From an uncultured Candidatus Pelagibacter sp. (GTDB lineage: Bacteria > Pseudomonadota > Alphaproteobacteria > Pelagibacterales > Pelagibacteraceae), in the NCBI GenBank assembly GCA_905612435.1, contig CAJQRZ010000010.1, positions 62,001 through 126,000 on the forward strand: a stretch of DNA of 64,000 bases. The letters run 5' to 3'. The notes below the pieces were generated by a model that saw only the letters and a list, made by a program, of their open reading frames with translations, was not told the origin of the DNA and did no database searches. How positions within the stretch are numbered: the stretch's first letter is position 1; the number at the start of each line of letters is the position of its first letter. The position numbers and the translations under genes were made by a program. Shown here piece after piece: positions 17,700 through 52,769 of the stretch.

Positions 17700-17724
17700 T
17701 CTTTAATAATAAAAGGGGAAATAT

Positions 17725-18669: not shown

Positions 18670-19511
18670 AAACAACTGACAAAAAATCTAAATCACAGTC
18701 AATGGGTATGCACACAGAGGTGCTTACAGGTAGAACGCAACAAAAATTTTTTAACCCCTCTGAGGCAGAAAATTTTTACTATTTTGGTACTTATGATGTT
18801 GATTTCAATAAAAGAACTGAACTTGATGTTAAAGAAATGACAGCACCTGAAGCTAATAAAAAAATTGATAATTTAATGAGCCAAGGCTATGGAACGATTG
18901 TTATAAAAAACCCTCAAGGAAAACATAGTTTAGGTGTTGGTATTTTAAACAAACTAAACTTAATTTTTGAAGGAAGTTTGGGTTATTTTGGTATGGGCTC
19001 TTGTGATGGTCCTACTGTTAGAATTAATGGAAGAGTTGGTTGGTCTTGTGCAGAAAATTTAATGGCTGGAAAAGTTGTTATAGAAAAAAATGCTGGCTCA
19101 TGTTTTGGTGCTGCCATAAGAGGTGGTGATTTAATTTGTAAAGGAAGTGTTGGTGCAAGAACTGGTATAGACATGAAAGGTGGAACTATCATTGTTGGTG
19201 GTGACGCTGGTGCATTTACAGGTTTTATGATGCAAAGAGGAAGAATTATTATTCTAGGAGATGTTGGGATAAACTTGGGAGACTCTATGTATGATGGCAC
19301 AATATTTATTGGTGGAAAAATAGGATCATTTGGAAGTGACGCTGTTCCTGGAGATTTAACTTCTAATGACCAAGATTGGTTAAAGAGAAAATTAAAAGTT
19401 GCAGAAATCGGTGAAAAATTTGATGTTAGTAAAATGACAAAAATAGTATCTGGTAAAAAACTTTGGAATTATGATAATTTAGAACCTACAGAAAAAAAAG
19501 GAGCAATTTAA
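18657..19511 (+). CDS. mgsB: N-methylglutamate synthase subunit B (GltB C-terminal-like domain)
   Basis: A 284-residue protein corresponding to the GXGXG beta-helix domain of glutamate synthase (GltB C-terminal domain). The repeated glycine pattern is plain: GSLGYFGMGSCDGPTVRING, AGSCFGAAIRGG, VGARTGIDMKGG, GDAGAFTGFMMQRG, GDVGINLGDSMYDG. It has an extra N-terminal segment of about 50 residues compared with its paralogue at 24274. It overlaps mgsA by 13 bases and shares one base with mgsC (TAATG), so the three are translationally coupled. The domain is structural within the synthase complex. Confidence 0.9.
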   Translation: MANLKTTDKKSKSQSMGMHTEVLTGRTQQKFFNPSEAENFYYFGTYDVDFNKRTELDVKEMTAPEANKKIDNLMSQGYGTIVIKNPQGKHSLGVGILNKLNLIFEGSLGYFGMGSCDGPTVRINGRVGWSCAENLMAGKVVIEKNAGSCFGAAIRGGDLICKGSVGARTGIDMKGGTIIVGGDAGAFTGFMMQRGRIIILGDVGINLGDSMYDGTIFIGGKIGSFGSDAVPGDLTSNDQDWLKRKLKVAEIGEKFDVSKMTKIVSGKKLWNYDNLEPTEKKGAI

Positions 19512-23389: not shown

Positions 23390-24274
23390 ATGTGTGGAAT
23401 TGTTGGCATCTATCTCAAAACTAAAAAATTTGAAAAGAATTTAGGTAAGATGTTATCTGTAATGTTAAATAACATGGAGTCTCGTGGACCTGATAGTGCT
23501 GGTTTTGCTATATATAAAAATGAAAGTAAAAAAATTTATAAATTTTCTTTATGCATTAATGATTTAAACTTCATTAACTTTAAAAAAGAAATATCTAAAA
23601 AGATCAAAAAAGCTAAATTAAATCAAATTTCTGATCATGTAATTCTTAAAACTCAGTTGCAACCAAAAAAAGTAATTGAAATAATAAATTCAAATTTTCC
23701 TAAAGTATCAATAGTTGGATATGGGCGATCAATAGAGATATTTAAACAAGTTGGTAAACCTAAAGATGTGGTTAAAAAATTTAAGTTAGATAGTTTTAGT
23801 GGAACACATGGAATAGGTCATACTAGAATGGCTACTGAGAGTGCAATCACTACAGATGGATCTCACCCCTATTCTACTGGTGAAGATGAATGCTTAGTTC
23901 ATAATGGTTCTTTATCTAACCATAATAATTTAAGAAGAGAACTTACTAAAAAGGGCACTATTTTTAATTCAGAGAATGACACTGAAGTAGCAGCTGGATA
24001 TGTATCTCATAATTTATCAAATAATAAATCTTTAAAGGATACTCTTACTTCTGGTCTTAAAGATTTAGATGGTTTTTATACTTTTATTGCAGGTACTAGA
24101 AAAGGATTTGCAGTAGTTAGAGATGAAATAGCATGTAAGCCTGCAGTGATAGCTGAAACAAAAAATTATGTTGCAATAGCTTCAGAGTTTCAAGCTATGG
24201 CTCATTTACCAGATGTAAATAATGCAAAAATTTTTGAACCTGAACCTGGTATTGTCTACTCTTGGGGAAAATAA
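23390..24274 (+). CDS. glxB: GlxB-type glutamine amidotransferase (second set)
   Basis: Class II amidotransferase of 294 residues, paralogous to MgsA at 17725. It starts MCGIVGIYLKTKK with the nucleophile Cys2 and keeps GTHGIGHTRMATES, CLVHNGSLSNHNN and ENDTEVAAGY. It is the first enzyme gene of a glxB-glxC-glxD-glnT order that matches the Rhizobium glx-glnT cluster as I remember it. Its stop codon shares a base with the glxC ATG. The natural amide substrate is unknown; a gamma-glutamyl amide made by the neighbouring GlnT is the likely one. Confidence 0.88.
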   Translation: MCGIVGIYLKTKKFEKNLGKMLSVMLNNMESRGPDSAGFAIYKNESKKIYKFSLCINDLNFINFKKEISKKIKKAKLNQISDHVILKTQLQPKKVIEIINSNFPKVSIVGYGRSIEIFKQVGKPKDVVKKFKLDSFSGTHGIGHTRMATESAITTDGSHPYSTGEDECLVHNGSLSNHNNLRRELTKKGTIFNSENDTEVAAGYVSHNLSNNKSLKDTLTSGLKDLDGFYTFIAGTRKGFAVVRDEIACKPAVIAETKNYVAIASEFQAMAHLPDVNNAKIFEPEPGIVYSWGK

Positions 24275-24957
24275 TGAAATTAGATTTAAAAAAAAAAAAA
24301 TTAAGAGAAATAAACAATACTTTACAAAATTTAGATATTAAAAAAAATGAGAGAGAATTCACGATTATAAATCCAGAAGGAAGTCATGCTTTATGTGCCG
24401 GACTAAACCAAGAAATGAAAATTTTAATTAAAGGACATGTTGGTTATTACTGTGCTGGAATGAACCAAAAAGCTCATGTAACTATTGATGGAAATGTTGG
24501 AACAGGTGTTGCTGAAAATATGATGTCTGGAATAGTTCATGTAAAAGGTAATGCTTCACAGTCTGCTGGAGCTACTGCTCATGGTGGTTTACTAATAATT
24601 GATGGAGATGCTAGTTCTAGGTGTGGTATTTCAATGAAAGGAATTGACATTGTAGTTAAAGGTTCGGTTGGGCATATGTCAGCGTTTATGGCACAAGCTG
24701 GAACAATGATAGTTTGTGGTGATGCAGGCGAAGCTCTAGGTGATAGCCTATATGAGACAGACATATTTGTTAAAGGATCTGTTAAATCTTTAGGTTCAGA
24801 CTGCATAGAAAAAAAAATAGAAAAAAAACATATAGATAAAATTTCTATACTTTTAAAAAAAAGTGAAATTAAAAATGTTAGACCAGAAAGTTTTAAGAGG
24901 TATGGTTCAGCAAGAAAATTATATAATTTTAACATCGATAATGTATCAAGTTATTAA
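24274..24957 (+). CDS. glxC: GlxC-type GltB C-terminal domain protein
   Basis: Beta-helix subunit paralogous to MgsB, 227 residues from the ATG at 24274. An in-frame TTG at 24262 adds four residues, but the ATG overlaps the glxB stop by one base (TAATG), the same coupling seen at mgsB-mgsC, and is preferred. The glycine repeats are visible: GHVGYYCAGMNQK, GNVGTGVAENMMSG, GDASSRCGISMKG, GDAGEALGDSLYE. A run of 13 A residues at 24288-24300 encodes lysines 6-9 and is a possible slippage site. The end lies two bases before glxD. Confidence 0.87.
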   Translation: MKLDLKKKKLREINNTLQNLDIKKNEREFTIINPEGSHALCAGLNQEMKILIKGHVGYYCAGMNQKAHVTIDGNVGTGVAENMMSGIVHVKGNASQSAGATAHGGLLIIDGDASSRCGISMKGIDIVVKGSVGHMSAFMAQAGTMIVCGDAGEALGDSLYETDIFVKGSVKSLGSDCIEKKIEKKHIDKISILLKKSEIKNVRPESFKRYGSARKLYNFNIDNVSSY

Positions 24958-24959
24958 TA

Positions 24960-26288
24960 ATGTCAGGAAATAAAAAAACTCACCCTCGTATTTCTTGGAC
25001 TTTTGATGAATACACAAACTCAGAAATAAGACGTGCAGCTGAAACAGGAATTTATGACATTAGAGGAGGTGGCTCAAAAAGAAAACTTCCTCATTTTGAT
25101 GATTTACTTTTTCTTGGTGCATCAATGTCTAGATATCCATTAGAAGGATATAGGGAAACTTGTAATACAAAAGTAACTTTAGGAACACGGTATGCAAAAA
25201 AACCTCTAGAACTAGATATACCAATAACAATTGCAGGAATGAGTTTTGGAGCTTTATCAGGAAGGGCCAAAGAAGCGTTAGGTCGTGGAGCTAGTATGGC
25301 TGGTACATCTACAACTACTGGTGATGGTGGAATGACTCCAGAGGAAAGAGGTCAATCTAAAAACTTAGTTTATCAACTTTTACCTTCTAGATATGGAATG
25401 AATCCAAATGACTTAAGAAAAGCTGATGCTATTGAAATTGTTATAGGACAGGGTGCTAAACCAGGTGGTGGTGGAATGTTATTAGGTCAAAAAATTAGTG
25501 ATCGTATTGCAGAAATGAGAACTTTACCCAAAGGCATAGATCAAAGATCAGCATGTAGACATCCAGATTGGACTGGACCTGATGATTTAAAAATTAAAAT
25601 ATTAGAATTAAGAGAAATAACAGAATGGAAAGTTCCGATTTTTATTAAAATAGCTGGAGCAAGACCATACTATGACACTGCTTTAGCTGTTAAAGCTGGA
25701 GCTGATGTAGTCGTTCTAGATGGTATGCAAGGAGGAACCGCTGCTACACAAGAAGTATTTATTGAAAATGTTGGCCAACCAACTTTGGCTTGTATCAGAC
25801 CCGCTGTAGATGCACTTCAAGATTTAGATCAACATCGAAAAGTTCAACTAATTATTTCTGGCGGGATTAGAAACGGAGCTGATGTTGCAAAAGCAATGGC
25901 TCTTGGTGCTGATGCTGTTTCAATTGGATCTGCTGCTATGATTGCACTAGGAGACAATGATCCTATGTGGGAAAAAGATTATAATAAATTAGGAAGTACA
26001 GCTGGAGCATACGATGATTGGCATGAAGGTAAGGACCCAGCAGGAATTACCACTCAAGATCCTGAATTAATTAAGCGTTTTGATCCAATAGCAGGTGGCA
26101 GACGTTTGTCTAATTATTTAAAAGTTATGACACTTGAAGCACAAACAATTGCAAGAGCCTCGGGTAAAAATGATTTACATAATTTAGAACCCGAAGACTT
26201 ATGTGCATTAACAGTTGAATCTGCAGCCATGGCCAGAGTTCCCCTTGCAGGAACTAGCTGGATACCGGGAATAAAAAATAAAAAATAA
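24960..26288 (+). CDS. glxD: GlxD-type FMN-binding glutamate synthase-like protein
   Basis: Catalytic subunit of the second synthase set, 442 residues, paralogous to MgsC without the lysine tail. Motifs seen: IAGMSFGALSGRAKEALGRG, TTGDGGMTPEERGQ, RSACRHPDWTGPDDL, VVLDGMQGGTAATQ, IISGGIRNGADVAKAMALG and the C-terminal LEPEDLCALTVESAAMARVPL. The cysteine-rich segment DCYHCHTGRCPVG of MgsC is replaced here by AYDDWHEGKDPAGITTQDP, so the cysteines expected for an iron-sulfur centre are missing. That difference suggests another electron route or another substrate. glnT follows after 44 bases. Confidence 0.88.
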   Translation: MSGNKKTHPRISWTFDEYTNSEIRRAAETGIYDIRGGGSKRKLPHFDDLLFLGASMSRYPLEGYRETCNTKVTLGTRYAKKPLELDIPITIAGMSFGALSGRAKEALGRGASMAGTSTTTGDGGMTPEERGQSKNLVYQLLPSRYGMNPNDLRKADAIEIVIGQGAKPGGGGMLLGQKISDRIAEMRTLPKGIDQRSACRHPDWTGPDDLKIKILELREITEWKVPIFIKIAGARPYYDTALAVKAGADVVVLDGMQGGTAATQEVFIENVGQPTLACIRPAVDALQDLDQHRKVQLIISGGIRNGADVAKAMALGADAVSIGSAAMIALGDNDPMWEKDYNKLGSTAGAYDDWHEGKDPAGITTQDPELIKRFDPIAGGRRLSNYLKVMTLEAQTIARASGKNDLHNLEPEDLCALTVESAAMARVPLAGTSWIPGIKNKK

Positions 26289-26332
26289 TATTGTAGAGAT
26301 TAGCTAACAATAGTAAATTAAAATTATAAATT

Positions 26333-27658
26333 ATGCCTAAAAATTTATCTAAAATAGCTAAAGCTAAAAAAATTAAGTATTTTCTAATAAGTTTTGTAGA
26401 TTTATTTGGGGTGTTAAGATCAAAATTAGTTCCAGCACAAGCTATTAGTGATATGCAAAAAAATGGTGCTGGCTTTGCTGGTTTTGCAACGTGGCTTGAT
26501 ATGTCTCCAGCAGATACCGATATGTTTGCAATTCCAGATCCAGATAGTCTTATTCAACTTCCTTGGAATAAAGAAATAGGATGGTTAGCTTCAGATTTAT
26601 GGATGGGTGGAAAAACTGTTAAAGCATCGCCAAGAGTGATGCTTAAAGAGCAGATCAAAGAATTAAACAAAAAGAATTTAACCATGAAATCTGGTGTTGA
26701 ATGTGAATATTTTTTAATTTCAGAAGATGGTAGTAAAATTGCTGATGCTCGAGATACTCAATCAAAACCTTGTTATGATCAATCTGCTTTAATGAGAAGG
26801 TACGACTTGATTAAAGAAATATGTGATAGCATGATTACGATGGGATGGAATCCATACCAAAATGACCATGAAGATGCTAACGGTCAATTTGAAATGAACT
26901 GGGATTACACAGATTGTCTAATTACTGCTGATAGGCATGTTTTTTTTAAATACATGGTTAAATCATTGTCTGAAAAGCATGGATTAAGGGCAACATTTAT
27001 GCCCAAACCTTTTGGAAATTTAACTGGAAACGGATGTCATGCTCATATTTCTTTATGGAATGAAAAGATAAATAAATTTTTAGATAATGGAGATAAATTA
27101 GGTTTAAGTAGGTTGGCATACAATTTTTTAGGTGGTATCATGAAGCTTACTCAACCTTTAACTGCTTTTTTTAACCCAACAATTAATAGTTACAGAAGAA
27201 TAAATGCACCCCCAACAAAATCAGGAGCTACATGGTCACCAAGTAGTATTTCTTATACAGGAAATAACAGAACTCACATGATAAGAGTACCAGATAAAGG
27301 TAGATTTGAATTAAGACTAATGGATGGTGCTGTAAACCCATACTTGCTTCAAGCTGGAGTAGTTGCTGCTGGTCTACATGGAATAAATAATAAAATAGAT
27401 CCTGGTGAACCTTTGTCTTGTAATATGTACACTGATCATAAAAATTATCCAAATCTAAAAAAATTACCTAACACAATTGAAGATGCTTTAGAACAATTAG
27501 AAAACAGTAAAGAAATTCGAGAAGCGTTTGGTGATAATACTATTAATAGTTATTTAAAATTAAAAAAATCAGAAATTGAAAATTTTAACCAAGAAGAAAC
27601 TTTCGATAAAGAAAACCCAGTAACTGAGTGGGAAAAAAATAACACTCTTGATTGTTAG
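26333..27658 (+). CDS. glnT: Type III-like glutamine synthetase GlnT
   Basis: A 441-residue glutamine-synthetase-family ligase. Motifs: SGVECEYFLISEDG (metal glutamates), NDHEDANGQFEMNW, NGCHAHISLW, NSYRRINAP, NRTHMIRVPDKGRFELRLMDG. The length and motif wording resemble rhizobial GlnT (about 435 residues), which lies downstream of glxBCD in the same order. It is clearly paralogous to GmaS at 16230 and the protein at 46835. The acceptor amine is uncertain. The following gene begins within a few bases of its stop, so an amino acid derived from the product may be handled by that PLP enzyme. Confidence 0.85.
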   Translation: MPKNLSKIAKAKKIKYFLISFVDLFGVLRSKLVPAQAISDMQKNGAGFAGFATWLDMSPADTDMFAIPDPDSLIQLPWNKEIGWLASDLWMGGKTVKASPRVMLKEQIKELNKKNLTMKSGVECEYFLISEDGSKIADARDTQSKPCYDQSALMRRYDLIKEICDSMITMGWNPYQNDHEDANGQFEMNWDYTDCLITADRHVFFKYMVKSLSEKHGLRATFMPKPFGNLTGNGCHAHISLWNEKINKFLDNGDKLGLSRLAYNFLGGIMKLTQPLTAFFNPTINSYRRINAPPTKSGATWSPSSISYTGNNRTHMIRVPDKGRFELRLMDGAVNPYLLQAGVVAAGLHGINNKIDPGEPLSCNMYTDHKNYPNLKKLPNTIEDALEQLENSKEIREAFGDNTINSYLKLKKSEIENFNQEETFDKENPVTEWEKNNTLDC

Positions 27659-41752: not shown

Positions 41753-42400
41753 ATGATTAAAAAAATCAAAGCATCAAAATCAGAAAAAATTACTTTAATC
41801 CTTTTAATTATATTAGGAATTTGTTTTGTAGCTTTTTTTGTAACTATTAAAAATAAATGTTTATTTGTTAAAAATTCTAGCCCAGAAAAAATTAAATTTA
41901 AAAATCCTGAAAACATTGTAATTCTAAATGCTCCCTGTGGTAACGTAATTATTGAACTTTATCCTAATATTTCTCCTAATGCGGTTGAAAGATTTAAAAC
42001 TCTAATAAAATCAAATGCATATGATAATATTGCTTTCCATAGAGTAATAGAAAATAAATTAGTACAAGCTGGTGATTTGGAATTTGGAAAAAAAAATAGA
42101 TTAGACTATGGAAAAATAGGTACTGGAAAATCAGGGCTAGGAACTATTAAATCTGAGCTTGATGGAGTGTTTAAATATACTCGTGGGAGTGTTGGTTTGG
42201 CCAGAAATTTTGAAAATAACACTGAAGACAGTCAATTTTTTGTAATTCTTCAGGACGAACCACTATTTGAAGGTGAATATACGCCTGTTGGTAAAGTTCT
42301 TTACGGTCTAAAAGTTTTGCACAAGATTAAGTACTTAAGAAACACAGAATATATTTTAAGGCCAGATTTTATTAATACTTTTAAAATGATGAATCAATAA
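41753..42400 (+). CDS. Membrane-anchored cyclophilin-type peptidyl-prolyl isomerase
   Basis: A 215-residue protein with an N-terminal helix at about residues 13-32 (ITLILLIILGICFVAFFV) and a periplasmic cyclophilin domain. Domain motifs: GNVIIELYPNISPNAVERFKTL, YDNIAFHRVIENKLVQAGDLE, KYTRGSVGLARNFENNTEDSQFFVIL and YTPVGKVLYGLKVL. It would speed up folding of exported proteins. The last seven bases overlap the end of the facing dehydrogenase gene. Confidence 0.92.
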   Translation: MIKKIKASKSEKITLILLIILGICFVAFFVTIKNKCLFVKNSSPEKIKFKNPENIVILNAPCGNVIIELYPNISPNAVERFKTLIKSNAYDNIAFHRVIENKLVQAGDLEFGKKNRLDYGKIGTGKSGLGTIKSELDGVFKYTRGSVGLARNFENNTEDSQFFVILQDEPLFEGEYTPVGKVLYGLKVLHKIKYLRNTEYILRPDFINTFKMMNQ

Positions 42401-43422
42401 CCTAAAATTTTATCAATTTTATTTTCTAATTCTTTATTTTCTAAAAATAATTTTAAATTTTTAATAAATAACTCAAGAGTCATTTTTACATAGTTTCCAT
42501 TATCATCTGAAGATATATGGGGTGTGATTATAAGGTTTGGCGTATGCCAAATTTTAGAATTTTTTTCTATTGGTTCATTTGTAAAAACATCAAGTATTGC
42601 TCCTGATAACTCTTTATTATTAAGTTTTTTACATAAAGAGTCATAATCCAAAACTGATTGACGTCCGATATTTACAATTCCACACGATGGTTTAAGCATA
42701 TCTAATCTTTTACGATCAATTAAATTTTTAGTTTCTGAAGTTTCTGGCAGTGCAAGATACAAAATATCTGCTATTGGTAGGATTGAATCAATTTTGTCAA
42801 TAGTTAGAATTTTAGAACAACCCTCAACAGGTCTTCCTTTTTTATTAACACCTATAATATTTGCGCCAAGTGGTTCCAAAAGTTTTGCCATTGAAGATCC
42901 TAATGAACCTGTGCCAACAAGTATAATATTTTTTCCTGCTATGGGATTGCTAAATAAAGACACAAACTCTTTATTTTTTTGATTTGTAATAATTTTTGGC
43001 ATATGATTTTGAAGCATTAAGACACTCATTAAACCATACTCACCTGCTTTCTTTGCATGAACCCCACTACTATTTGTTATTACTAATTTATCAAATGACC
43101 AGGTAAAAGGTGATAAATGTTCAACACCTGCCGCGGTACAATGAATCCACTTTAAATTAGGAGCAATTTTTTTAAGATTTGAGGTTGGAAAATCATAAGT
43201 AAGCAGAATTTCCGATCTAAACATAGATGCGTTGAAATTATCTTCATCCCAATCAATAAAAAACTCAACTTTTTCTTTAATACTAGGTTCAGTTTCCAAA
43301 GCTTCTTCAAAGTGTTCTTTGGTTATAGTAAAGTTTTTTTCACCTTCTAAGTCACATGGAAAAGTGCCAGGACGTCCATGGTTATTTTTAATATGAATTT
43401 TAATTTTTTTAGTATTTATCAA
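42394..43422 (-). CDS. D-2-hydroxyacid dehydrogenase
   Basis: NAD(P)-dependent reductase of 342 residues in the D-isomer-specific family. Motifs: ILVGTGSLGSSMAKLLEPLG (nucleotide binding), the catalytic arginine in VNIGRQSVLDYD, the glutamate in DVFTNEPIE and the histidine in NLIITPHIS. The layout is close to glyoxylate/hydroxypyruvate reductases, which would suit the serine-cycle genes in the window, but it is far from them. Its start overlaps the end of the upstream Rieske oxygenase gene by 14 bases, so the two are co-expressed and the substrate is probably a product of that oxygenase. Confidence 0.85.
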   Translation of the reverse strand: MINTKKIKIHIKNNHGRPGTFPCDLEGEKNFTITKEHFEEALETEPSIKEKVEFFIDWDEDNFNASMFRSEILLTYDFPTSNLKKIAPNLKWIHCTAAGVEHLSPFTWSFDKLVITNSSGVHAKKAGEYGLMSVLMLQNHMPKIITNQKNKEFVSLFSNPIAGKNIILVGTGSLGSSMAKLLEPLGANIIGVNKKGRPVEGCSKILTIDKIDSILPIADILYLALPETSETKNLIDRKRLDMLKPSCGIVNIGRQSVLDYDSLCKKLNNKELSGAILDVFTNEPIEKNSKIWHTPNLIITPHISSDDNGNYVKMTLELFIKNLKLFLENKELENKIDKILGY

Positions 43423-44770
43423 AAATTCCTTTCTTTTCCATTTTAGATAAATTGTTTATAATATGAGTATCTCTCTCTTTAACTGACATATTCTCTAGAT
43501 CAAATTGCATTTTCATAATAGCTGATCCTATCGACTTGATAAATTTACGGTCATCTATATTTCTTTTCGGTACTCTTAGTATTGTATCTTGACCATTTGT
43601 TTTTACTATACCTCCCTTTATTTTTTTTGGTTGTGGTGGCTCATTACCTTTTTCTAAACTTTTTACTAAGTTTCTAATTCTACGTCTATAAATCATAACT
43701 CCTTTGTCTGTTGGCATTAAATGCTCACCTTTGTGAGTACTGATAGAGCCCATTCCCTCTACTGCTTCTGCATCACCTGGATTTTTTTGCTTTTCTTCAA
43801 AAGTTCTGTTCATGATTTCACCAGCTTCAATTTTTTCACAGCCTTCTTTATTATTGTATTTAATTGGGTCTCCTCTTTCTCCAAAATTTCCCCACGCTAA
43901 AGCTATACAATGATGATCATCGACTGGCACCACCCATCTTGTAAAAGAACTTCGACCAAAATATCGAGTTTTAGTGCCATCAGCTGCAAAAGCTGCTCCT
44001 GCTTGTGTAAAATTTGGTAGAATTAATTCATTTACTCTTACCCAAACATTATCATTTATACGACGTGTATTACATCCAAGATATTGAATTCCTCTTTCAA
44101 AAAATTCTATCTCTCCTACTTCAGCAAAACCCTCTGAAAATTGTATTCCAGAACTTTGACCGTGTAGAAAAGAAGTGTGAACAGGATCCATAATGGCATC
44201 AAGAACTTGAATCCAATTACAATTATATTCTATACGATATGGTCTTGTTATATTACCAGGAATTTCAAATGCATCATAATGAGGAAACTCTGGTATCTTA
44301 TCCATTGGACCTAAATAAGAAAATATTAATCCATTAAATTCAATAACAGGATAAGCTCCAAGTTTAAATGTTTTTCTTAACTTGGTTGCTTGCTTTGAAT
44401 TAGAATCTTCACCTGGTGTTTCAAGAATTTCTCCATCTGTAGAAAATAACCAACCATGATAACAGCATCTGATCCCTCTTTCTTCAGTTTTACCGTATAC
44501 CAAGGAAGCTCTTCTATGGGGACATGCTTTATGAACTAATCCAATATTATTTTTACTTGTTTTAAAAATTACTAACTCTTCACCAAGAATTCGAATCTCT
44601 TTTGGTGTCTCACTAACTTCAGAGGTTAATGCTACTGGGTGCCAGTATCTTCTTAGGTATTCCCCGCAGGGTGTGTTTGCATTTGTTTGAACTATGTCTT
44701 CATCTATTTTCAATATAGCTGTTTGATTATATCCTCTAAAACCTTCTTTTTTAAAATTAGATTTATTCAT
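43409..44770 (-). CDS. Rieske non-heme iron oxygenase, phthalate-dioxygenase-like
   Basis: Oxygenase alpha subunit of 453 residues. The Rieske [2Fe-2S] ligands are Cys83 and His85 in KACPHRRASL and Cys102 and His105 in RCCYHGWLF. The mononuclear-iron site is suggested by LDAIMDPVHTSFLHG. The N-terminal phrase CGEYLRRYWHPVALTSEV and the long C-terminal region are typical of the phthalate 4,5-dioxygenase branch, whose members attack aromatic acids and ether or amine groups. No ferredoxin or reductase gene is adjacent. It faces away from a second, unrelated Rieske gene, with 91 bases between the starts. Confidence 0.9.
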   Translation of the reverse strand: MNKSNFKKEGFRGYNQTAILKIDEDIVQTNANTPCGEYLRRYWHPVALTSEVSETPKEIRILGEELVIFKTSKNNIGLVHKACPHRRASLVYGKTEERGIRCCYHGWLFSTDGEILETPGEDSNSKQATKLRKTFKLGAYPVIEFNGLIFSYLGPMDKIPEFPHYDAFEIPGNITRPYRIEYNCNWIQVLDAIMDPVHTSFLHGQSSGIQFSEGFAEVGEIEFFERGIQYLGCNTRRINDNVWVRVNELILPNFTQAGAAFAADGTKTRYFGRSSFTRWVVPVDDHHCIALAWGNFGERGDPIKYNNKEGCEKIEAGEIMNRTFEEKQKNPGDAEAVEGMGSISTHKGEHLMPTDKGVMIYRRRIRNLVKSLEKGNEPPQPKKIKGGIVKTNGQDTILRVPKRNIDDRKFIKSIGSAIMKMQFDLENMSVKERDTHIINNLSKMEKKGIFDKY

Positions 44771-44861
44771 TAAAATTTATACAACTGCTCGTTTAAAACT
44801 ATTAGATTGTAAATCTTAATATTCTAAATTAGGCTTTTCAATATAAAAAATAAAATTAATC

Positions 44862-45986
44862 ATGGGTGACTTAATTAAAATTAAAAAACCAAAGAATAGT
44901 AGCACTGTATTTGGCTTACCTGCTAAATCTTATACTGATAAAAAATTTTGGGAAAAAGAATGTGATACAGTTTTGTCTAATGGTTGGTTATTTGTTGGTT
45001 TTGTTCATGAGTTTAAAGATAATGGCGATGTAATACCAATACATATTGCTGACAAACCAATACTGCTTATAAAAAATAATGATAGTAAAATTGTAGCATT
45101 CCACAATGTATGCAGTCATCGTTGTCTTAAACTTGTTGATGAAAAAAAAAATATTGGAAAAATTATTCAATGCCCTTATCATTCTTGGACTTATGACCTC
45201 GATGGCAATTTAAAAGGTGCCCCACATATAGGTGGAACTAATCAACATAAGCCTAAAGGGTTTAATTTTTCTGATCATGGGTTAAAATCAATACGTGTTC
45301 ATGTTTGGCATGACTGGATATTTATAAATTTAAATAATAATGCTAAAAAATTTGAAGATTATGCAAAACCACTTATTGCAAAATTTCAAGATATAGATCT
45401 TAAAAAATTAACATATGCCACTACTTTAGATTTTGGAAAAATAAACACTAATTGGAAATTTCTTATAGAAAACTTTATCGAACCTTATCACGTTCAATTT
45501 GTTCATAAAACTACAACTAATCAACCACTTAAAGATCACTATACAGTTGTTGATGGCCTCTGTTATGGTAGCGGTGTTGATGTTAAAGAGGAAGATAATA
45601 AAAATAATAGTGCTTTATCTGTTACATCACGTTACTTATCTCTTTTCCCTAATTTTATAATAGGAACCTATTTTCCAAATCAAATAGGTGTTTATTTAAA
45701 TGTGCCATTAACTCCAAGCCTAACAACACAGAAGAGGGTTATTTATACTACAGATGAAAAAACCATGTCTGAAGATGAAATAAAAGTTACCAAAAAAATT
45801 TGGTGGAGTGTACACAAAGAGGATCATGAAATGTGTGAAAGATTACAAGAAGGAAGATCTTCACCTGCATCTAACGAAGGTGGGCTTTTATCTCCTCATT
45901 GGGAAAAAGGTGTTCAAGCATTTCAAAAACTTATAATAGATTCGACAATGAAATCAAAAACAATAAAAAGGAAAAAAAATGTCTAA
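44862..45986 (+). CDS. Rieske oxygenase, choline/glycine-betaine monooxygenase-like branch
   Basis: A 374-residue oxygenase subunit. Rieske ligands are Cys84 and His86 in NVCSHRCLKL and Cys104 and His107 in QCPYHSWTYDLDG. The iron site is ENFIEPYHVQFVHKTT with two histidines. The opening GLPAKSYTDKKFWEKE and the overall length match the branch that includes GbcA, choline monooxygenase and CntA, which act on quaternary amines. It is the first gene of a five-gene rightward run (VOC protein, cupin, glutamine-synthetase-like ligase, alpha/beta hydrolase). The next gene overlaps it by eight bases. No reductase partner is nearby. Substrate is unknown. Confidence 0.9.
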   Translation: MGDLIKIKKPKNSSTVFGLPAKSYTDKKFWEKECDTVLSNGWLFVGFVHEFKDNGDVIPIHIADKPILLIKNNDSKIVAFHNVCSHRCLKLVDEKKNIGKIIQCPYHSWTYDLDGNLKGAPHIGGTNQHKPKGFNFSDHGLKSIRVHVWHDWIFINLNNNAKKFEDYAKPLIAKFQDIDLKKLTYATTLDFGKINTNWKFLIENFIEPYHVQFVHKTTTNQPLKDHYTVVDGLCYGSGVDVKEEDNKNNSALSVTSRYLSLFPNFIIGTYFPNQIGVYLNVPLTPSLTTQKRVIYTTDEKTMSEDEIKVTKKIWWSVHKEDHEMCERLQEGRSSPASNEGGLLSPHWEKGVQAFQKLIIDSTMKSKTIKRKKNV

Positions 45987-46398
45987 AGAAATTAATCTAG
46001 ATGGATATAGACTTGCACACACAATGATAAGAGTTAAAAATCTCGAAGCATCTTTTAATTTTTACTGCAAAACTTTAGGAATGAAAGTTTTGAGAAAAAC
46101 AGATTATCCAGAAGGTAAATTTACAAATGCTTTTATTGGTTATGGGCTTGAGACAGAATCTCCATGTCTAGAACTTACTCATAATTGGGATCAAAAAGAC
46201 GATTACGATAAAGGTAATGGATGGGGACATATATGCATTGAAACACCTAATGTTTACAAAGCTTGTGAAGACCTTGTTAAACTTGGTATAAATATTACTC
46301 GTAAACCAGGTCCTATGAAGCATGGAACAAGAGTTATAGCATTCTGTGAGGATCCAGATGGATATAAAGTAGAGTTAAACGAACCAATAAAAATATAA
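45979..46398 (+). CDS. VOC-family protein (glyoxalase I-like)
   Basis: A 139-residue vicinal-oxygen-chelate protein close to lactoylglutathione lyase: LAHTMIRVKNLEASFNFYCKTLGMKVLRKTDYP at the start, ELTHNWDQ, KGNGWGHICIETPNVY and FCEDPDGYKVELNE, including the metal-type H and E residues. Glyoxalase I removes methylglyoxal as the glutathione adduct. In this run, between a Rieske oxygenase and a cupin, a dedicated role in the same catabolic pathway is as likely as general detoxification. The ATG overlaps the upstream gene by eight bases. Confidence 0.88.
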   Translation: MSKEINLDGYRLAHTMIRVKNLEASFNFYCKTLGMKVLRKTDYPEGKFTNAFIGYGLETESPCLELTHNWDQKDDYDKGNGWGHICIETPNVYKACEDLVKLGINITRKPGPMKHGTRVIAFCEDPDGYKVELNEPIKI

Positions 46399-46416
46399 AA
46401 CTGAAAGGAAATACAA

Positions 46417-46812
46417 ATGTCAAAAAAACCACAATTATATAAATTTAAAGATATTGAAAATAGACTGCATACATTAGAGCCTGGTAAGAGCTACATTAAA
46501 CCATTTGTAACTAGTAAAGTAAGTAACACTATGTGTGGCGGATTAAATTTTTTAAACAAAGTTTCTGTACCATGGGATTTAACTTGTGATGAAATCATCT
46601 ATTGTATGGAAGGAACTTTTCGTCTGACTTGTGATGGAGAGTCTTTCATTTGCAACCCTGGAGATGTACTTTATGTTCCAAAAGATAACCATATAGCTTA
46701 CGAATGTGATAAAAAATGTGTAATATTTTATGCTGCTTATCCTCATGATTGGAAGCAACAAGCAGGTATAACATTTGTTCCAGGAATAGATCCTGAGGAT
46801 ATGCCAAAATAA
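46417..46812 (+). CDS. EutQ-like cupin protein
   Basis: A 131-residue single-domain cupin with a good ribosome site (AAAGGAAA). The first motif reads PWDLTCDEIIYCMEGTFRLTCDG and the second NPGDVLYVPKDNHIAYEC. The H-x-H pair of metal-binding cupins is replaced by T-x-D, as in EutQ-type proteins, while the glutamate and one histidine remain. Six cysteines in so short a protein is unusual for this genome. It might bind a small amine or act as an isomerase or lyase in the pathway of its neighbours; this is speculative. Confidence 0.8.
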   Translation: MSKKPQLYKFKDIENRLHTLEPGKSYIKPFVTSKVSNTMCGGLNFLNKVSVPWDLTCDEIIYCMEGTFRLTCDGESFICNPGDVLYVPKDNHIAYECDKKCVIFYAAYPHDWKQQAGITFVPGIDPEDMPK

Positions 46813-46834
46813 TAAGGAATTAAAGGAGATCAAT

Positions 46835-48256
46835 ATGAACAAAAATGAAAAGATTTATTATGAAAACTTTAAAGATGCAGTTGAACGTAATAGAAAAAAA
46901 TTACCTGCTGTTCATAAAAAACTAAAAAGCGCTGGTGTAAAATATGTTTTATCAAGCTGGATTGATCTCCACGGCATTCCAAAATCAAAACCTGTTCCAA
47001 TGAGTGATTTTGAACCTTTATGCTTAGGAAAAGGACCTCAGTTTGCTGTTCATTCTATTTCTTTTGTTCCAGAACTTACTCCCGCAGATTCTGATCAAAT
47101 AATGTTACCTGATTTAGATGCAATTTATATTTGTCCATGGGATAAAACGACTGCAATAATTTTTGCTGATCTTTTTTGGGAGGATAAACCTTATAATGTT
47201 TGTCCTCGGCAAGCTTTAAAGCGTGCCATGCAAAAAGCTCAAGATGCAGGATATAAAGGAATGGCTGGCATAGAACCAGAGTTTATTGCAATGAAGTATG
47301 ATGAAAATGGTGAACCTGTTAAAGCCATTGATAATGATCCAGCTAAAGGTATTAGGCCGAGACGACAAGCTTTTGGTTATGATGTGGAACACACATTAGA
47401 TTCTATGCATTTTTTAAAAGAACTTATAGACATTTTAAATGATCTAGGTTGGATGATACATGATGTTGTTGCAGAAGGTGCTTACTCTCAATTTGAACTA
47501 GATTTTCACTACACTAACCTTTTAGAGATGGCAGATAGATTAGTTTTTCTTCGAATTCTTTTAAAAGAAATAGCAAAAAAAAATAATATGTTCATTACTT
47601 TTATGCCTAAACCAACAATAGGAGATTGGAGATCTGGAGCTCATATAAATTTTTCAATGATTGATAAAAATGGAAAAAATATTTTTGATGGTGGAAATAA
47701 ATTTTCCAAAGAATGTATATTTGCAGTAGGAGGATTAATGAAACACTCAGAAGCTCTAACTTCAATTACTTGCTCAACTGTAAATTCATATAACGGTTTA
47801 GTCCCTAGAGTTGGAGGTTTTGAAGGTGGAACGGTTACTTGGGCACCAACAAATATTACTTATGGACATAACAATAGATCTGCACAATTTCGATTACCTC
47901 AAAACAGATATTGTATTGAAAATAGAGCAGCAGATATGACAATGAATGTGTATCTAGCGCTTTCAATGACAATTTCTGCAGCTATTGAAGGAATTGAAAA
48001 AAAAATACATCCAGGTGAACCAACGGATCAAGATTTGTATAATATGTCAGAGAGTGAGTTTAAAAAACTTGGAATTAAAAGACTACCAAGAAATTTACTA
48101 TTAGCGATTGAAGCTCTTAAAAATGATAAACTAACTGATGAAGTTTTAGGGCCTGTTATGAAAAAATCATTACTTGCATATAAGAATGATGAGTGGGAGA
48201 GATATCATCAAGCTGTTACCGACTGGGAAGTAAAAGAGTATCTTAGACTTTATTAA
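46835..48256 (+). CDS. Glutamine-synthetase-like gamma-glutamyl ligase (third paralogue)
   Basis: A 473-residue member of the GlnT/GmaS group, preceded by AAAGGAG. Catalytic motifs: MAGIEPEFIAMKYD, VAEGAYSQFELDFHYT (in place of E-D-A-x-G-Q-x-E), RSGAHINFSM, STVNSYNGLVPR, and NRYCIENRAADMTMN in place of the usual G-R-x-E-x-R. Compared with the other two copies, the arginine pair after NSY is changed (YNGL for YRRL), which probably alters substrate choice. It shares one base with the following hydrolase gene (TAATG). It most likely glutamylates the amine on which the Rieske oxygenase cluster works. Confidence 0.87.
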   Translation: MNKNEKIYYENFKDAVERNRKKLPAVHKKLKSAGVKYVLSSWIDLHGIPKSKPVPMSDFEPLCLGKGPQFAVHSISFVPELTPADSDQIMLPDLDAIYICPWDKTTAIIFADLFWEDKPYNVCPRQALKRAMQKAQDAGYKGMAGIEPEFIAMKYDENGEPVKAIDNDPAKGIRPRRQAFGYDVEHTLDSMHFLKELIDILNDLGWMIHDVVAEGAYSQFELDFHYTNLLEMADRLVFLRILLKEIAKKNNMFITFMPKPTIGDWRSGAHINFSMIDKNGKNIFDGGNKFSKECIFAVGGLMKHSEALTSITCSTVNSYNGLVPRVGGFEGGTVTWAPTNITYGHNNRSAQFRLPQNRYCIENRAADMTMNVYLALSMTISAAIEGIEKKIHPGEPTDQDLYNMSESEFKKLGIKRLPRNLLLAIEALKNDKLTDEVLGPVMKKSLLAYKNDEWERYHQAVTDWEVKEYLRLY

Positions 48257-49266
48257 TGAAAAAGTTTCAAGAGTTTAACTTAGGAGGAGTTAAACTTTTA
48301 TCTGGTAAAATTCTAAAGTCAGCCAAATTAGTTTACCAAACTTATGGTAAATTAAATAAAAACTGCTCAAATGTAATTGTACTTCCAACATTTTATACAG
48401 GAACTCATATTCGTAATGAAGGTTTTATTGGTAAAAATAGAGCTTTGAATCCAAATAAATATTTTATCATTTCAATAAATATGTTTGGTAACGGTCTATC
48501 TTCTTCACCAAGCAACACAGCTAGATTACAACATGGTTCTCAATTCCCAGAAATAACACTTTGGGATAATATTCATTGTCAGCACAAACTAATAACTGAA
48601 AAACTTAAAATAAAAAAAATTGCATTAGTAACAGGTTGGTCTATGGCTGGTTGTCAATCATATCAATGGGCAGCTCAATATCCTAATGTGGTTAAAGCAA
48701 TTCTTCCCTTTTGTGCATCATCCAAAACCTCAATACACAATCATGTTTTTTTAGAAGGTGTAAAAGCTGCTTTGATAACTGATAAAAATTGGAAGAACGG
48801 TAAATATAAAAAACAGCCTGTTGCAGGCTTAAAAGCTTTTGGTCGTGTATATGCAGGTTGGGCTTTTTCTCAAGATTTTTATAGGGAAAAACTTTATAAA
48901 AAAATTGGGTACAAGAATGTAAAAAATTTACTAGATGATTGGTCAAATGATCATGCAAAAAATTGGGACGCTAACGATCTTTTATGCAAATTAAAGACTT
49001 GGCAATTAAACGATATAAGCATTGGTCCAATTTATAAGGGTAACTATATAAAAGCTCTTAAGTCAATTAAAGCAAAAACAATTATAATGCCCTGCAATCA
49101 AGATTTATATTTTAGAACAAAAGATAATGAGTATGAAAAAAAATTTATTAGAAGATCTTCTTTAAGATCAATTGATTCACCTTATGGACACTGTGCAGCA
49201 AATCCTGGCAATGATAAAAACTTTCAAAATAAATTAGATAGAAATATTGTTGAATTATTAACTTAA
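48256..49266 (+). CDS. MetX-like alpha/beta hydrolase
   Basis: A 336-residue alpha/beta hydrolase of the homoserine O-acetyltransferase family. The nucleophile elbow is VTGWSMAGCQSYQWAAQYP, the acid lies in MPCNQDLYFR and the histidine in DSPYGHCAANPG, giving a complete Ser-Asp-His triad. The early segment IVLPTFYTGTHIRNEGFIG stands where MetX proteins have a conserved oxyanion/substrate loop, and differs from it. Translational coupling to a gamma-glutamyl ligase suggests it may work as an amide hydrolase or acyltransferase in the same route and not in methionine synthesis. That is an inference. Confidence 0.82.
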   Translation: MKKFQEFNLGGVKLLSGKILKSAKLVYQTYGKLNKNCSNVIVLPTFYTGTHIRNEGFIGKNRALNPNKYFIISINMFGNGLSSSPSNTARLQHGSQFPEITLWDNIHCQHKLITEKLKIKKIALVTGWSMAGCQSYQWAAQYPNVVKAILPFCASSKTSIHNHVFLEGVKAALITDKNWKNGKYKKQPVAGLKAFGRVYAGWAFSQDFYREKLYKKIGYKNVKNLLDDWSNDHAKNWDANDLLCKLKTWQLNDISIGPIYKGNYIKALKSIKAKTIIMPCNQDLYFRTKDNEYEKKFIRRSSLRSIDSPYGHCAANPGNDKNFQNKLDRNIVELLT

Positions 49267-49369: not shown

Positions 49370-50536
49370 ATGAAAAATCAACTTAAGAAAAAGCTTAAGA
49401 AGGTTAATAAAAATTTTAGTAGTCAAAAAATAATTAAAGAACCGTTAGAACTATTTAAAAAAATAAATTTAAAAAAATTTGGAAAAGTTACTACAGATTC
49501 TTTAGTTAATTTAACTAAAACATACAAAAACTTTAAAAAAAAACAGAAACTAAAAGAAATAAAAAAAATTAATCTTGAAAGAAAAGAAAAGATTAATGCA
49601 ATCAAGAAAGAGAAATTAAAACAACAACAACAAAAATTAAGTGAAGAAAAACAAATAAAAAAAGATTATTTAAATAAATTGAAAGAAGAGAAACAAAAGA
49701 TTGAAAACCAAAAAAAACAAAGGTTAAAAATTGAAAAACAACACCGACAAAATGAAAGACAAAAAATTAAGATCAAAGAACAAAGATTAAAAGCAGAAGA
49801 ACAAAAGTTAAAAGACCAAAAAGAAAAAAAACTACGAGAAGATGATCTAAAATTGAAAGAAGAAAAATTAAGATTAGAATTCTTGGAAAAACAACGGATA
49901 AGACAAGAAAAACAAAAATTAAAAGAAGAAGAACAAATAGAAAAAAATTTAGCAAAAGAAAGAACTAGGGAAGAAGAGCAGAGAATAATAGCAGAAAAAC
50001 AAAAATTAAAAGATTTGGAGATTCAAAAACAAAAAGATGAAAATCATAAATTACAAGAAGAAGAACATAAATTAAAATATGAAGAACAAAGATTAAAAGA
50101 AGCTGAACAAAAAATAAGGGAAAAAGAAACTCAGAGATTAAGAGAAAATGAAATACAAATATTAAAGGAAGAAGAAGAGCTAAGGACAAAACAAGAAGCA
50201 TTTAGATTAAAAGAACAAGAAGAAATAGCAGAATTAAAAGAATTAAAACTAAAAGAACAACTACATAGAAAAAAAGAAGAAGAGTTTAAGCTAAAAGAAG
50301 AAGAACAAAAATTAAAAGATTTAGAAGAACAGAAAGTAATAAATGCTAAAATTACAGAAGAAAATAGAATCAAAGAAGAAAATATAAGAATAAAAGAATG
50401 GGAAAGAACATTTGATGAAGAACAAAAAAAAAAAGAAGAAGAGCTTATAAGAAAATTCAGTGAAGAAAAAATTAAAGATGAAGATGAAGATGAAAAATTA
50501 AATGATGAAGATGAAAAAATAAAAAACGAAGAATAA
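49370..50536 (+). CDS. Long lysine/glutamate-rich coiled-coil protein
   Basis: I do not recognise a family. The 388-residue protein has no signal peptide or membrane helix. Residues about 60-350 are almost pure K, E, Q, L and R in heptad-like order, with a loose recurring unit such as LKEEEQKLK, EEQRLKEAEQK and EKQKLKDLE, ending in an acidic tail (DEDEKLNDEDEK). This predicts one long charged coiled coil or single alpha-helix. The coding strand is extremely A-rich and nearly free of C and T runs. It stands alone between convergent or distant genes, with about 100 bases upstream that hold no firm promoter. A structural or filament role is possible. Confidence 0.75.
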   Translation: MKNQLKKKLKKVNKNFSSQKIIKEPLELFKKINLKKFGKVTTDSLVNLTKTYKNFKKKQKLKEIKKINLERKEKINAIKKEKLKQQQQKLSEEKQIKKDYLNKLKEEKQKIENQKKQRLKIEKQHRQNERQKIKIKEQRLKAEEQKLKDQKEKKLREDDLKLKEEKLRLEFLEKQRIRQEKQKLKEEEQIEKNLAKERTREEEQRIIAEKQKLKDLEIQKQKDENHKLQEEEHKLKYEEQRLKEAEQKIREKETQRLRENEIQILKEEEELRTKQEAFRLKEQEEIAELKELKLKEQLHRKKEEEFKLKEEEQKLKDLEEQKVINAKITEENRIKEENIRIKEWERTFDEEQKKKEEELIRKFSEEKIKDEDEDEKLNDEDEKIKNEE

Positions 50537-50546
50537 TAAAAGATTA

Positions 50547-52769
50547 TTAATTAATTAAAGGTTTTCCAGTTGCCAAGGTATATTTAATTCTTTCTTGTGT
50601 TTTTTTGTTTTTTATTAATCTCATGAAAGAGTCTAATTCTAATTTAAATAAATAGTCTTCAGATAAAGTTTTGTCGATTGTAGTATCTCCCCCACTTAAA
50701 ACATTAGCTAACTCTTTTCCCACTTCAATCCCATGGTCAAAAATTAATTTATTATTATAAAGTTTTTCTAAAATTTTAATCATTTCATCTTTAACTATTT
50801 TTCCTGGTAGATTAAATTTTTTTTCATTTGGAGACTTAAAATCTCTATTTTCTTCTAAAATTTTCCTTGAAACTCCTAATAAACTATTTCTATTCATTAT
50901 TTTTTTATCTTTTACTTTTAGATACTTTAGAGGCTCTGCTTCAACTGGTGATGTGGCAGTTTTGGCATAGCCAATAATATCAAAAACCTTTAAAGGAGCA
51001 TAATGTGGATTTTTTTTAGCTTCTTCGGTATCTAACCATCTTGCGAGCATCTCTTTACACCCACCACCAGCTGGAATTAATCCAACTATCGTTTCAACTA
51101 GTCCAACAACAATATTTGTATGAGAAACTACAAAATTACTTTGTACCATAACCTCAAAACCGCCACCAAGCGTTAAGCCTGATGGAGCAGAAATAACTGG
51201 GTGATCAGAGTATTTAAGATGTTTACAAGTTATTTGAAAATATCTAATAAATTTTTCTATAGATTTAAAATCATTTTTATCAGCAAAATCCATTGTATAA
51301 TTTAAGTTAACTCCTGCAGAAAATTGCATACTTTCATTAATAATTATTAAAGGTTTGTCTGTAGCCTTCTTTAAAGCATCCATTGAATCATAATCAAGAG
51401 CATTTGCTTTGGTTGTAAATTCAACAATGTTATAATCTTTAAATCTATAAATTTCCGCAGAACTATTTCCATCTACACTTACAGCTGTTTTTTTAACTTT
51501 TCCTAAAGTTTCAATTTCAGTATATTTTTGTCTTTCACCATAAAATTTCTCATCTTTTGTTTTTGCCAGATTCTCTAAAAAATTATTACCTTTATAATCT
51601 TCAACTTTATTAAAAAAGTTAACTACACCAATTTCTTCGAGCATCTCAAAGGGGCCTTTGGTCCAGTTAAAACCCAATCTCATAGCTTCATCTATATCAT
51701 TAAACTCTTTGGTAATTTCCGGAACTAAAGATGATGCATATTTGATTATTTTTGAAATGACTGACCAAGCATACTTACCATATTTATCATTTCTATTAAT
51801 TAAAGATTTAAGATCAACTTTTTCAGATTTAATATTAATTTTTTTACTTGGTAAATATTCACCAGTTTCAAGGTTTAATGCTTCCATTACCTTTTTTCCA
51901 TCAGATTTATTAACTCGGTAAAAACCACCTTTTCCTTTTCGACCAGTATATCCTGTTTCTATTAATTTTTTTACTAACGGAATTTCTTTTGCAACATCAT
52001 GGAAATTATCAGTTTTTGGCAACTCTTTAATAAAACTTTTAAGGACATCGGCCATTAAGTCTATTCCGATAAGGTCATAAAGACCAAATACTCCTGTTTT
52101 AGGAATTCCCATAGGTCTACCAAATATTGCGTCAGCTTCTTCAATTGAAAGATTCTCTTTAAATGCTTCTGTCATTGCAATTTGCATTGCATAAACCCCC
52201 ACTCTATTTCCTAAAAATCCCGGTGTATCATTACAGATGATTGCACCTTTCCCTAATTCATTTTCGCAAAAATTTTTTAAAGAATTAATTTTATCTAAAT
52301 CGTTATTTTCATTTTTAACAATCTCTAGGAGGCCCATATATCTAACAGGATTAAAAAAGTGAGTTATGCAAAAGTCTTTTTTTTCATCATCTGATAGATT
52401 TTGAGATAAAACTTTGATAGGAATTGATGAAGTGTTTGATGATACTATTGCTCCATTTTTTCTTTCCTTAAATATCTTTTTATAAATATCATGCTTAACG
52501 TCTATTCTTTCAACAACAGCTTCTACCACCCAGTCAGCATCCTTAACTGTATTGAAGTCATCTGAAATATTACCAACTTTAATATTATTTATTTTTGATT
52601 TATCTAATAAAAGTGGTGGTCTTGATTTATAAATTCTATCTCTAGCTTGTTTGCTTATTTCTGTTTTTAAATCAAGTAAAGTGACTGGAATATTGGCATT
52701 ACATAAATGAGCTGCAATACCACTACCCATTGTTCCTGAACCAATAACTACTACTTTTTTAATTTCCAT
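50547..52769 (-). CDS. Bifunctional 3-hydroxyacyl-CoA dehydrogenase/enoyl-CoA hydratase (FadN-like)
   Basis: A 740-residue beta-oxidation enzyme with the dehydrogenase first and the hydratase last, the reverse of E. coli FadB. The NAD site is VVVIGSGTMGSGIAAHL at the N-terminus, followed by ITHFFNPVRYMGLLEIV and CNDTPGFLGNRVGVYAM. The crotonase part shows SAGVNLNYTMDFADK and VISAPSGLTLGGGFEVMVQSNFVV. It is divergent from a thiolase gene 128 bases away. The two would complete the last steps of fatty acid or related acyl-CoA breakdown. Confidence 0.92.
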   Translation of the reverse strand: MEIKKVVVIGSGTMGSGIAAHLCNANIPVTLLDLKTEISKQARDRIYKSRPPLLLDKSKINNIKVGNISDDFNTVKDADWVVEAVVERIDVKHDIYKKIFKERKNGAIVSSNTSSIPIKVLSQNLSDDEKKDFCITHFFNPVRYMGLLEIVKNENNDLDKINSLKNFCENELGKGAIICNDTPGFLGNRVGVYAMQIAMTEAFKENLSIEEADAIFGRPMGIPKTGVFGLYDLIGIDLMADVLKSFIKELPKTDNFHDVAKEIPLVKKLIETGYTGRKGKGGFYRVNKSDGKKVMEALNLETGEYLPSKKINIKSEKVDLKSLINRNDKYGKYAWSVISKIIKYASSLVPEITKEFNDIDEAMRLGFNWTKGPFEMLEEIGVVNFFNKVEDYKGNNFLENLAKTKDEKFYGERQKYTEIETLGKVKKTAVSVDGNSSAEIYRFKDYNIVEFTTKANALDYDSMDALKKATDKPLIIINESMQFSAGVNLNYTMDFADKNDFKSIEKFIRYFQITCKHLKYSDHPVISAPSGLTLGGGFEVMVQSNFVVSHTNIVVGLVETIVGLIPAGGGCKEMLARWLDTEEAKKNPHYAPLKVFDIIGYAKTATSPVEAEPLKYLKVKDKKIMNRNSLLGVSRKILEENRDFKSPNEKKFNLPGKIVKDEMIKILEKLYNNKLIFDHGIEVGKELANVLSGGDTTIDKTLSEDYLFKLELDSFMRLIKNKKTQERIKYTLATGKPLIN

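Follow-up and report, generated by a model that had tools for sequence, protein, structure and literature searches.

SAR11 bacteria and roseobacters take up much of the small-molecule nitrogen that plankton release. For homarine, a 2026 paper in Nature Microbiology reportedly describes homABCDER, a set of five genes plus a regulator that is present in Rhodobacterales, SAR11 and SAR116. Quaternary-ammonium oxygenases of the GbcA/CntA type are served by a dedicated FAD/2Fe-2S reductase, and IpuC and the aniline ligases are, like GmaS, GlnT and PuuA, gamma-glutamyl ligases. Here we describe a locus that shares features with these systems, located on a stretch of 64,000 nucleotides from an uncultured Candidatus Pelagibacter sp. 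(contig CAJQRZ010000010.1, positions 62,001 to 126,000; the whole stretch is referred to as the window), whose source genome measures 1.1 Mb and is estimated to be 71.5% complete. The gene content of this locus, its conservation, its insertion as a unit, the conserved residues at its catalytic sites and the altered pocket of its ligase were observed directly, and the locus is probably a seven-gene block by which SAR11 bacteria and roseobacters break down a small nitrogen compound of plankton, perhaps homarine.

On the plus strand, the block contains five intact open reading frames (ORFs) at 44862-49266 that overlap by 8 and 1 bases or lie 18 and 22 bases apart, exactly as an earlier note on this DNA had listed them. 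These encode a GbcA/CntA-like Rieske oxygenase (RIE, 44862..45986; PF00355 and PF00848), a glyoxalase I-type VOC metalloprotein (45979..46398; TIGR00068) and an EutQ-like cupin (46417..46812; PF06249, with a predicted cupin fold), together termed module A, followed by a core of a ligase with the glutamine-synthetase (GS) fold and an altered acid pocket (46835..48256; PF00120, 1.1e-86) and an alpha/beta hydrolase assigned to the PRK07581 type by its score (48256..49266). The earlier note was right about these five genes and about the labels of the first three, but it had missed a divergent pair on the minus strand (42394-44770), termed module B, which brings the unit to seven genes: a D-2-hydroxyacid dehydrogenase (2HAD, 42394..43422; PF02826) and a second, phthalate 4,5-dioxygenase-like Rieske oxygenase (RIE2, 43409..44770; PF00355), whose best match in the Protein Data Bank (PDB) is 7fhr (1.4e-42). 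By the gene coordinates, 91 bases (44771..44861) separate the two oxygenase genes, and they presumably hold the putative promoters of both sides. The G+C content of the unit (31.1%) shows no anomaly against that of the window (30.9%).

The insertion site was examined by seeking the right-hand neighbouring gene (50547-52769) in 61 genus-sample genomes, where it was matched in 49; neighbouring stretches were compared from 14 of these, 13 of which were usable (L175 was too short; L numbers denote loci). In 9 of these 13 congener stretches, the orthologue of 50547-52769 directly abuts that of 41753-42400 with nothing between, and in L164 (probably the same carrier as L052) all seven genes, 2HAD included, lie exactly at that junction. 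The unit therefore consists of seven genes, and the segment 42394-49266 acts like a single insertion at a site whose content varies. In L169 and L170 the same site is occupied by different genes, among them ORFs of 2003 and 2100 residues, and the two left-hand neighbours of the unit are absent from L177. In other SAR11 genomes the unit is found elsewhere, e.g., beside carnitine-type or near choline-dehydrogenase-like genes (labels from sequence appearance). As a separate observation, a Lys/Glu-rich repetitive ORF of 388 residues (22% G+C, no Pfam match) lies at 49370-50536 of the window, and one of 55% identity also adjoins the unit in L034.

The same comparison bears on the possibility of a guanidino or arginine-derived substrate, with the unit feeding agmatinase-type ureohydrolases. 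Such a role is suggested by the agmatinase at 40005 in the window and by the surroundings of the unit on roseobacter plasmids, where a speB agmatinase gene is nearby in 3/3 cases and arginase-family and 5-guanidino-2-oxopentanoate decarboxylase genes in 2/3. However, orthologues of the agmatinase and of the adjoining aldehyde dehydrogenase (ALDH) occupy the same place in 12 of the 13 congener stretches whether the unit is present or not (the contig of the thirteenth ends before it), and are therefore uninformative on its function; a functional meaning of these two neighbours was accordingly rejected. Since agmatinase-type neighbours were moreover seen in only 6 of 36 representative loci, we regard this explanation as very improbable.

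Conservation was assessed on loci retrieved with the ligase as bait. A search of a named collection yielded 345 stretches at E 1e-3 or better, of which the best 80 were kept (73-95% identity). Synteny was first mapped over 92 loci, and later tblastn counts covered 94, after L034 to L037 had been dropped (L034 to L036 were taken as copies of L050, L058 and L072, and L037 was dropped with them) and the window plus five later loci had been added. All counts below refer to the 67 loci, window included, in which the ligase is flanked by 5 kb or more upstream and 3 kb or more downstream (i.e., 42 SAR11-titled loci, including the window and also L114, which follows the gene order of the L105-like loci, and 25 others), and they depend on the choice of bait and on the thresholds of identity set for tblastn. 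The ligase and hydrolase genes occurred together in 65/67 loci, with no hydrolase nearby in L118 and L039. RIE and VOC were found in 59/67 (42/42 SAR11-titled and 17/25 others), the cupin in 55/67, and RIE2 with 2HAD in 37/67 (32/42 and 5/25, respectively). An Lrp/AsnC regulator gene was present in 14/25 of the non-SAR11 loci and in 0/42 of the SAR11-titled ones.

All five plus-strand genes occurred together in 42/42 SAR11-titled loci and in all four order-sample relatives of the window, a recurrence that bears out the earlier proposal of a conserved unit and led us to reject chance clustering. Outside this arrangement, module B occurs without module A in L113, L120, L040 and the short contig L045, and module A without module B in L111, L115, L125 and others; in L109 and L040 the module B genes lie on the strand of the core. 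The roseobacter plasmids L132 and L143 carry the core and the regulator with neither module, in a region that also encodes a desaturase-family protein, ferredoxins and an annotated C-terminal binding protein. As judged from these gene orders, the ligase-hydrolase pair is the constant core around which oxygenase modules are exchanged; neither this exchange nor the regulator is visible from the window alone. In L049, from 11419, the hydrolase gene is split over two ORFs (74% and 70% matches), a possible frameshift.

Among 146 other genomes of an order sample, four held ligase orthologues (89-95% identity), and among 384 others of a class sample there were eight further relatives (60-76%), the next best match falling to 39%; none of 397 other genomes in a phylum sample carried the ligase at E 1e-150, where only the window's own genome matched. 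An order search around genome G225 returned G225 itself only, and one around G423 found 3 carriers among 11. The best 80 of the 345 relatives were mostly Pelagibacteraceae, including Ca. Pelagibacter ubique HTCC9565, the remainder being Ruegeria, Leisingera, Roseovarius, Pontibaca, Pelagibius and uncultured alphaproteobacteria. The ligase was also found on three plasmids, all from Rhodobacterales. Phage carriage was rejected, as every one of the 16 phage records with GS homologues was below 60% identity. In L069, L108 and L122 the ligase lies on short contigs assigned to bins of Bacteroidetes, Marinimicrobia and Gammaproteobacteria, a placement that likely reflects mis-binning, at least in the case of L069, whose ligase is 90% identical to that of the SAR11 window.

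The ligase differs most from its described relatives in the pocket for the acid. According to the RhGmaS report (PMC7948447), Gly231, His235, Arg288 and Arg327 are among the residues that bind a glutamate analogue, and Asp177 is the base for methylamine. When mapped by alignment, these positions correspond to Arg266, His270, Gly321, Arg364 and Val212 in the ligase family. V212, W265, R266 and G321 were invariant in 98/98 aligned ligases (a set that holds at least three copies of the same contigs). The equivalents of the catalytic GmaS residues Glu186 and Arg312 (E221 and R348) were kept in 93/93 ligases, as were the ATP/metal residues E147, E149, E214, H270, R353, E362 and R364. The family forms one side of a branch with 100/100 support, and the outgroup branches are long. 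Its member in the window scored 357.4 bits with the type III glutamate-ammonia ligase model TIGR03105 (cut-off 469.6), versus 614.1 bits for the GmaS-type paralogue at 26333 in the window, and it also stayed under the cut-off of the gamma-glutamylputrescine model. The pocket for the acid is thus rebuilt.

The earlier note had proposed that the ligase protects an amine by turning it into a gamma-glutamyl amide, that the Rieske enzyme oxidizes it and that the hydrolase then frees glutamate. The intact GS fold and ATP/metal residues are in line with such a scheme, and the 65/67 pairing of ligase and hydrolase fits a cap-and-release device. Val212 was dropped as evidence against amine ligation because E. 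coli PuuA, a glutamate-putrescine ligase, has Val there too; an amine may thus still act as nucleophile, and the relocated Arg might still hold the glutamate carboxylate. In contrast, the substitution of Arg266 for Gly and Gly321 for Arg throughout the family is shared with neither E. coli GlnA, PuuA nor paralogue 26333, all of which retain Gly and Arg, as do 15 of 16 outgroup ligases (35-39% identity), and the scores under both model cut-offs point the same way. Formation of a gamma-glutamyl amide is hence not supported as stated, and we consider this scheme unlikely. It is somewhat less doubtful, although still tentative, that the GS-fold enzyme is a new type of ATP-dependent ligase whose acid substrate is not glutamate, and that it forms with the hydrolase an activate-and-release core fitted, in different bacteria, with at least two different Rieske modules (RIE-VOC-cupin and RIE2-2HAD), so that a metabolite abundant in the ocean would be processed by a route not yet described.

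Two further GS-like ligases were noted alongside. The sixteenth outgroup sequence, L024 (38% identity, outside the family), has the same Arg/Gly pocket swap. In the window, a second divergent GS-like ligase (16230-17699) stands beside an mgs-like set, scores below the cut-offs of GS-type models and has Ala and Arg at the positions of Gly231 and Arg288.

Both oxygenases retain their putative metal sites (the alignments of RIE, RIE2, VOC, 2HAD and the hydrolase left out fragmentary or over-long ORF rows and L034 to L037). In RIE, residues C84, H86, C104 and H107 and residues H210, H215 and D321, which we take to be the Rieske and 2-His-1-carboxylate ligands, and E207, presumably the bridge between the two centers, were invariant in 78/78 sequences; in RIE2, the presumed ligands C83, H85, C102 and H105 and D195, H198 and H203 were invariant in 48/48. 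With the GbcA model, RIE scored 144.6 bits against an equivalog cut-off of 670. Its best PDB E-value was to salicylate 5-hydroxylase (5e-26, residues 19-216), and its match to CntA (6y9c; 3.6e-24, residues 14-347) had the longest coverage of the top PDB matches. The predicted RIE model (mean pLDDT 73.4, with several active-site stretches below 50) matched CntA best (Z 28.0 to 28.9; for 6y9c, Z 28.9 and rmsd 3.8 over 336 residues), with other Rieske folds following from Z 27.5 and stachydrine demethylase entries at 27.1 and 26.9. No reductase was found in the unit, and PF00175 (NAD_binding_1) and PF14759 (Reductase_C) were unmatched in eight genus genomes, five of them carriers; Fer2 proteins were present in 5/5 carrier genomes examined.

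The fold match to CntA also speaks for a carnitine or gamma-butyrobetaine pathway, in which the CntA-like enzyme would release trimethylamine and the unit would process malic semialdehyde, and so do genes labelled by sequence appearance as BKACE (15/42) and L-carnitine-dehydrogenase-like (16/42) near the unit in SAR11 loci. Such neighbours, however, mark one of several insertion contexts, the window's own neighbours differ, and 0/25 non-SAR11 loci matched them at 60% identity or more. Moreover, a CntB-type reductase is missing from the unit, and PF00175 and PF14759 were unmatched in the eight genus genomes. We therefore hold this pathway to be improbable.

VOC, 2HAD and the hydrolase were likewise conserved at their catalytic sites. 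The VOC protein scored 149.2 bits with TIGR00068 (cut-off 120) but did not reach those set for two narrower models of lactoylglutathione lyase; H14, E65, H84 and E132, presumably metal ligands, were invariant in 80/80, and by score and these four putative ligands the protein belongs to the glyoxalase I family. The cupin matches EutQ, lacks a classical HxH motif by eye, and in its predicted fold resembles generic cupins (Z about 10.6 to 12.3). In 2HAD, R254, E283 and H302, which we take to be catalytic, were invariant in 46/46 aligned rows. For the hydrolase, S129 and D283 were found in 81/81 and H312 in 80/81 (one gap), presumably the triad known from the family. It scored 425 bits with PRK07581 (cut-off 332) and 157.3 with the MetX model TIGR01392 (cut-off 500), so that a plain homoserine acetyltransferase was rejected and the MetX-like label of the earlier note gave way to PRK07581. 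The closest PDB entries were 5e4y (4.3e-58) and 5d6o (1.5e-56), with 2pl5 farther off (2.6e-22), all three named homoserine O-acetyltransferase in the match table. We assume 5e4y to be the ester hydrolase MekB, for which a literature search found no paper.

Genes around the unit give a hint as to the fate of the nitrogen. Within 10 kb of the ligase, gmaS (53-74% identity to 26333) is encoded at 11 loci from three lineages (eight of the L105-like type, L115, and L043/L044), accompanied by mgsC in 8 and amt in 9 of the 11; three L105-like loci have no mgs, for two of which the contig end accounts. By a rough estimate (a 20-kb span in a genome of 1.3 to 4 Mb, some 14 lineages), less than one such lineage would be expected by chance. 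This proximity fits methylamine or N-methylglutamate (NMG) as a product. ProV/ProW-type transporter genes (glycine-betaine family) directly follow the hydrolase in Pontibaca L113 and Roseovarius L120 and lie near the unit in L132 and L143. A polyamine (Pot) type was rejected for the Leisingera transporter set between ligase and hydrolase, the binding protein of which looks NMT1/TauA-like by eye. Elsewhere in the window, a trimethylamine N-oxide demethylase is encoded at 4910-7234 (NF053776, 1161.3 bits, cut-off 1100), and two GmaS/NMG-synthase-like gene sets lie at 16230-20923 and 23390-27658.

The reading we favour, albeit with slightly less than even confidence, is that of a movable catabolic cassette that degrades a small zwitterion of marine plankton, N-methylated or quaternary (betaine type), with homarine as the likeliest single substrate and with a five-gene part that may equal homABCDER. 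The chemistry we propose for this cassette is drawn from the enzyme classes. CntA-like RIE would attack the substrate at or next to an N-methyl or ring nitrogen to give a hydroxy- or oxo-aldehyde, which the VOC protein could convert into a 2-hydroxyacyl thioester. The hydrolase may cleave an ester, thioester or formyl bond, and 2HAD would oxidize the resulting hydroxy acid. The ligase would spend ATP on an acid other than glutamate, or on glutamate held differently, and the nitrogen would exit as methylamine or NMG into the GmaS/NMG pathway. Other genomes might use RIE2 with 2HAD, or perhaps a desaturase-type oxygenase, in place of the first module around the core. For homarine, this chemistry would explain the loss of one ring carbon en route to NMG, and a report cited in PMC13390433 has NMG dehydrogenase taking part in homarine catabolism.

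Several points weigh against homarine and the cassette so read. The link to homarine is drawn from context, and the match between the gene families of the unit and homA to homE is conjectural. The proposed chemistry leaves the part of the ligase in homarine breakdown unexplained, the electron donor was not found in the unit or, as PF00175 or PF14759, in the eight genus genomes, and CntA leads the remaining Rieske folds by no more than about 1.4 Z units. Some neighbours suggest guanidino compounds or carnitine instead, and transporter types differ between genomes: ProV/ProW-type genes occur in some, and in five there is another ABC type whose binding protein, judged by eye, resembles NMT1/TauA. 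SAR11 copies have no adjacent Lrp gene (0/42). SoxA-type genes cannot discriminate either: they occur in 122 of 147 order-sample genomes, so that their presence in carriers is uninformative as a test for homarine.

Set beside known systems, the ligase resembles GmaS, GlnT and PuuA in its GS fold, its ATP/metal residues and (as for PuuA) Val212, but departs from them in the Arg266/Gly321 swap and in Trp265 of the glutamate pocket; in a GS-fold ligase, a pocket arginine that has moved would broaden the chemistry known for this family. RIE shares the Rieske and iron-ligand residues, the bridging Glu and the fold with the oxygenases GbcA, CntA and stachydrine demethylase, yet it scores far under the GbcA cut-off and has no adjacent reductase. 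The hydrolase joins the esterase-like PRK07581 subfamily (5e4y, 5d6o) by score and by its Ser-Asp-His residues, whereas its pairing with a ligase sets it apart. In the literature searched, judged mostly by titles, we recognized no description of this gene set, although there is a substantial chance that its five-gene part has already been published as the homarine operon. Carriers in culture (Ca. Pelagibacter ubique HTCC9565, Ruegeria, Leisingera and Roseovarius) offer a direct way to assign the catabolic route. As reported, homABCDER and the unit both comprise five structural genes plus a regulator (here RIE, VOC, cupin, ligase and hydrolase with Lrp), and both are tied to NMG metabolism and range over Rhodobacterales and SAR11; unlike homABCDER, the unit has RIE2 and 2HAD in addition, and its SAR11 copies go without the adjacent Lrp gene. 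Should the five-gene part prove to be the operon for homarine, the present locus would add to it the exchange of modules, RIE2-2HAD as a partner, the changed pocket and the evidence on the insertion site.

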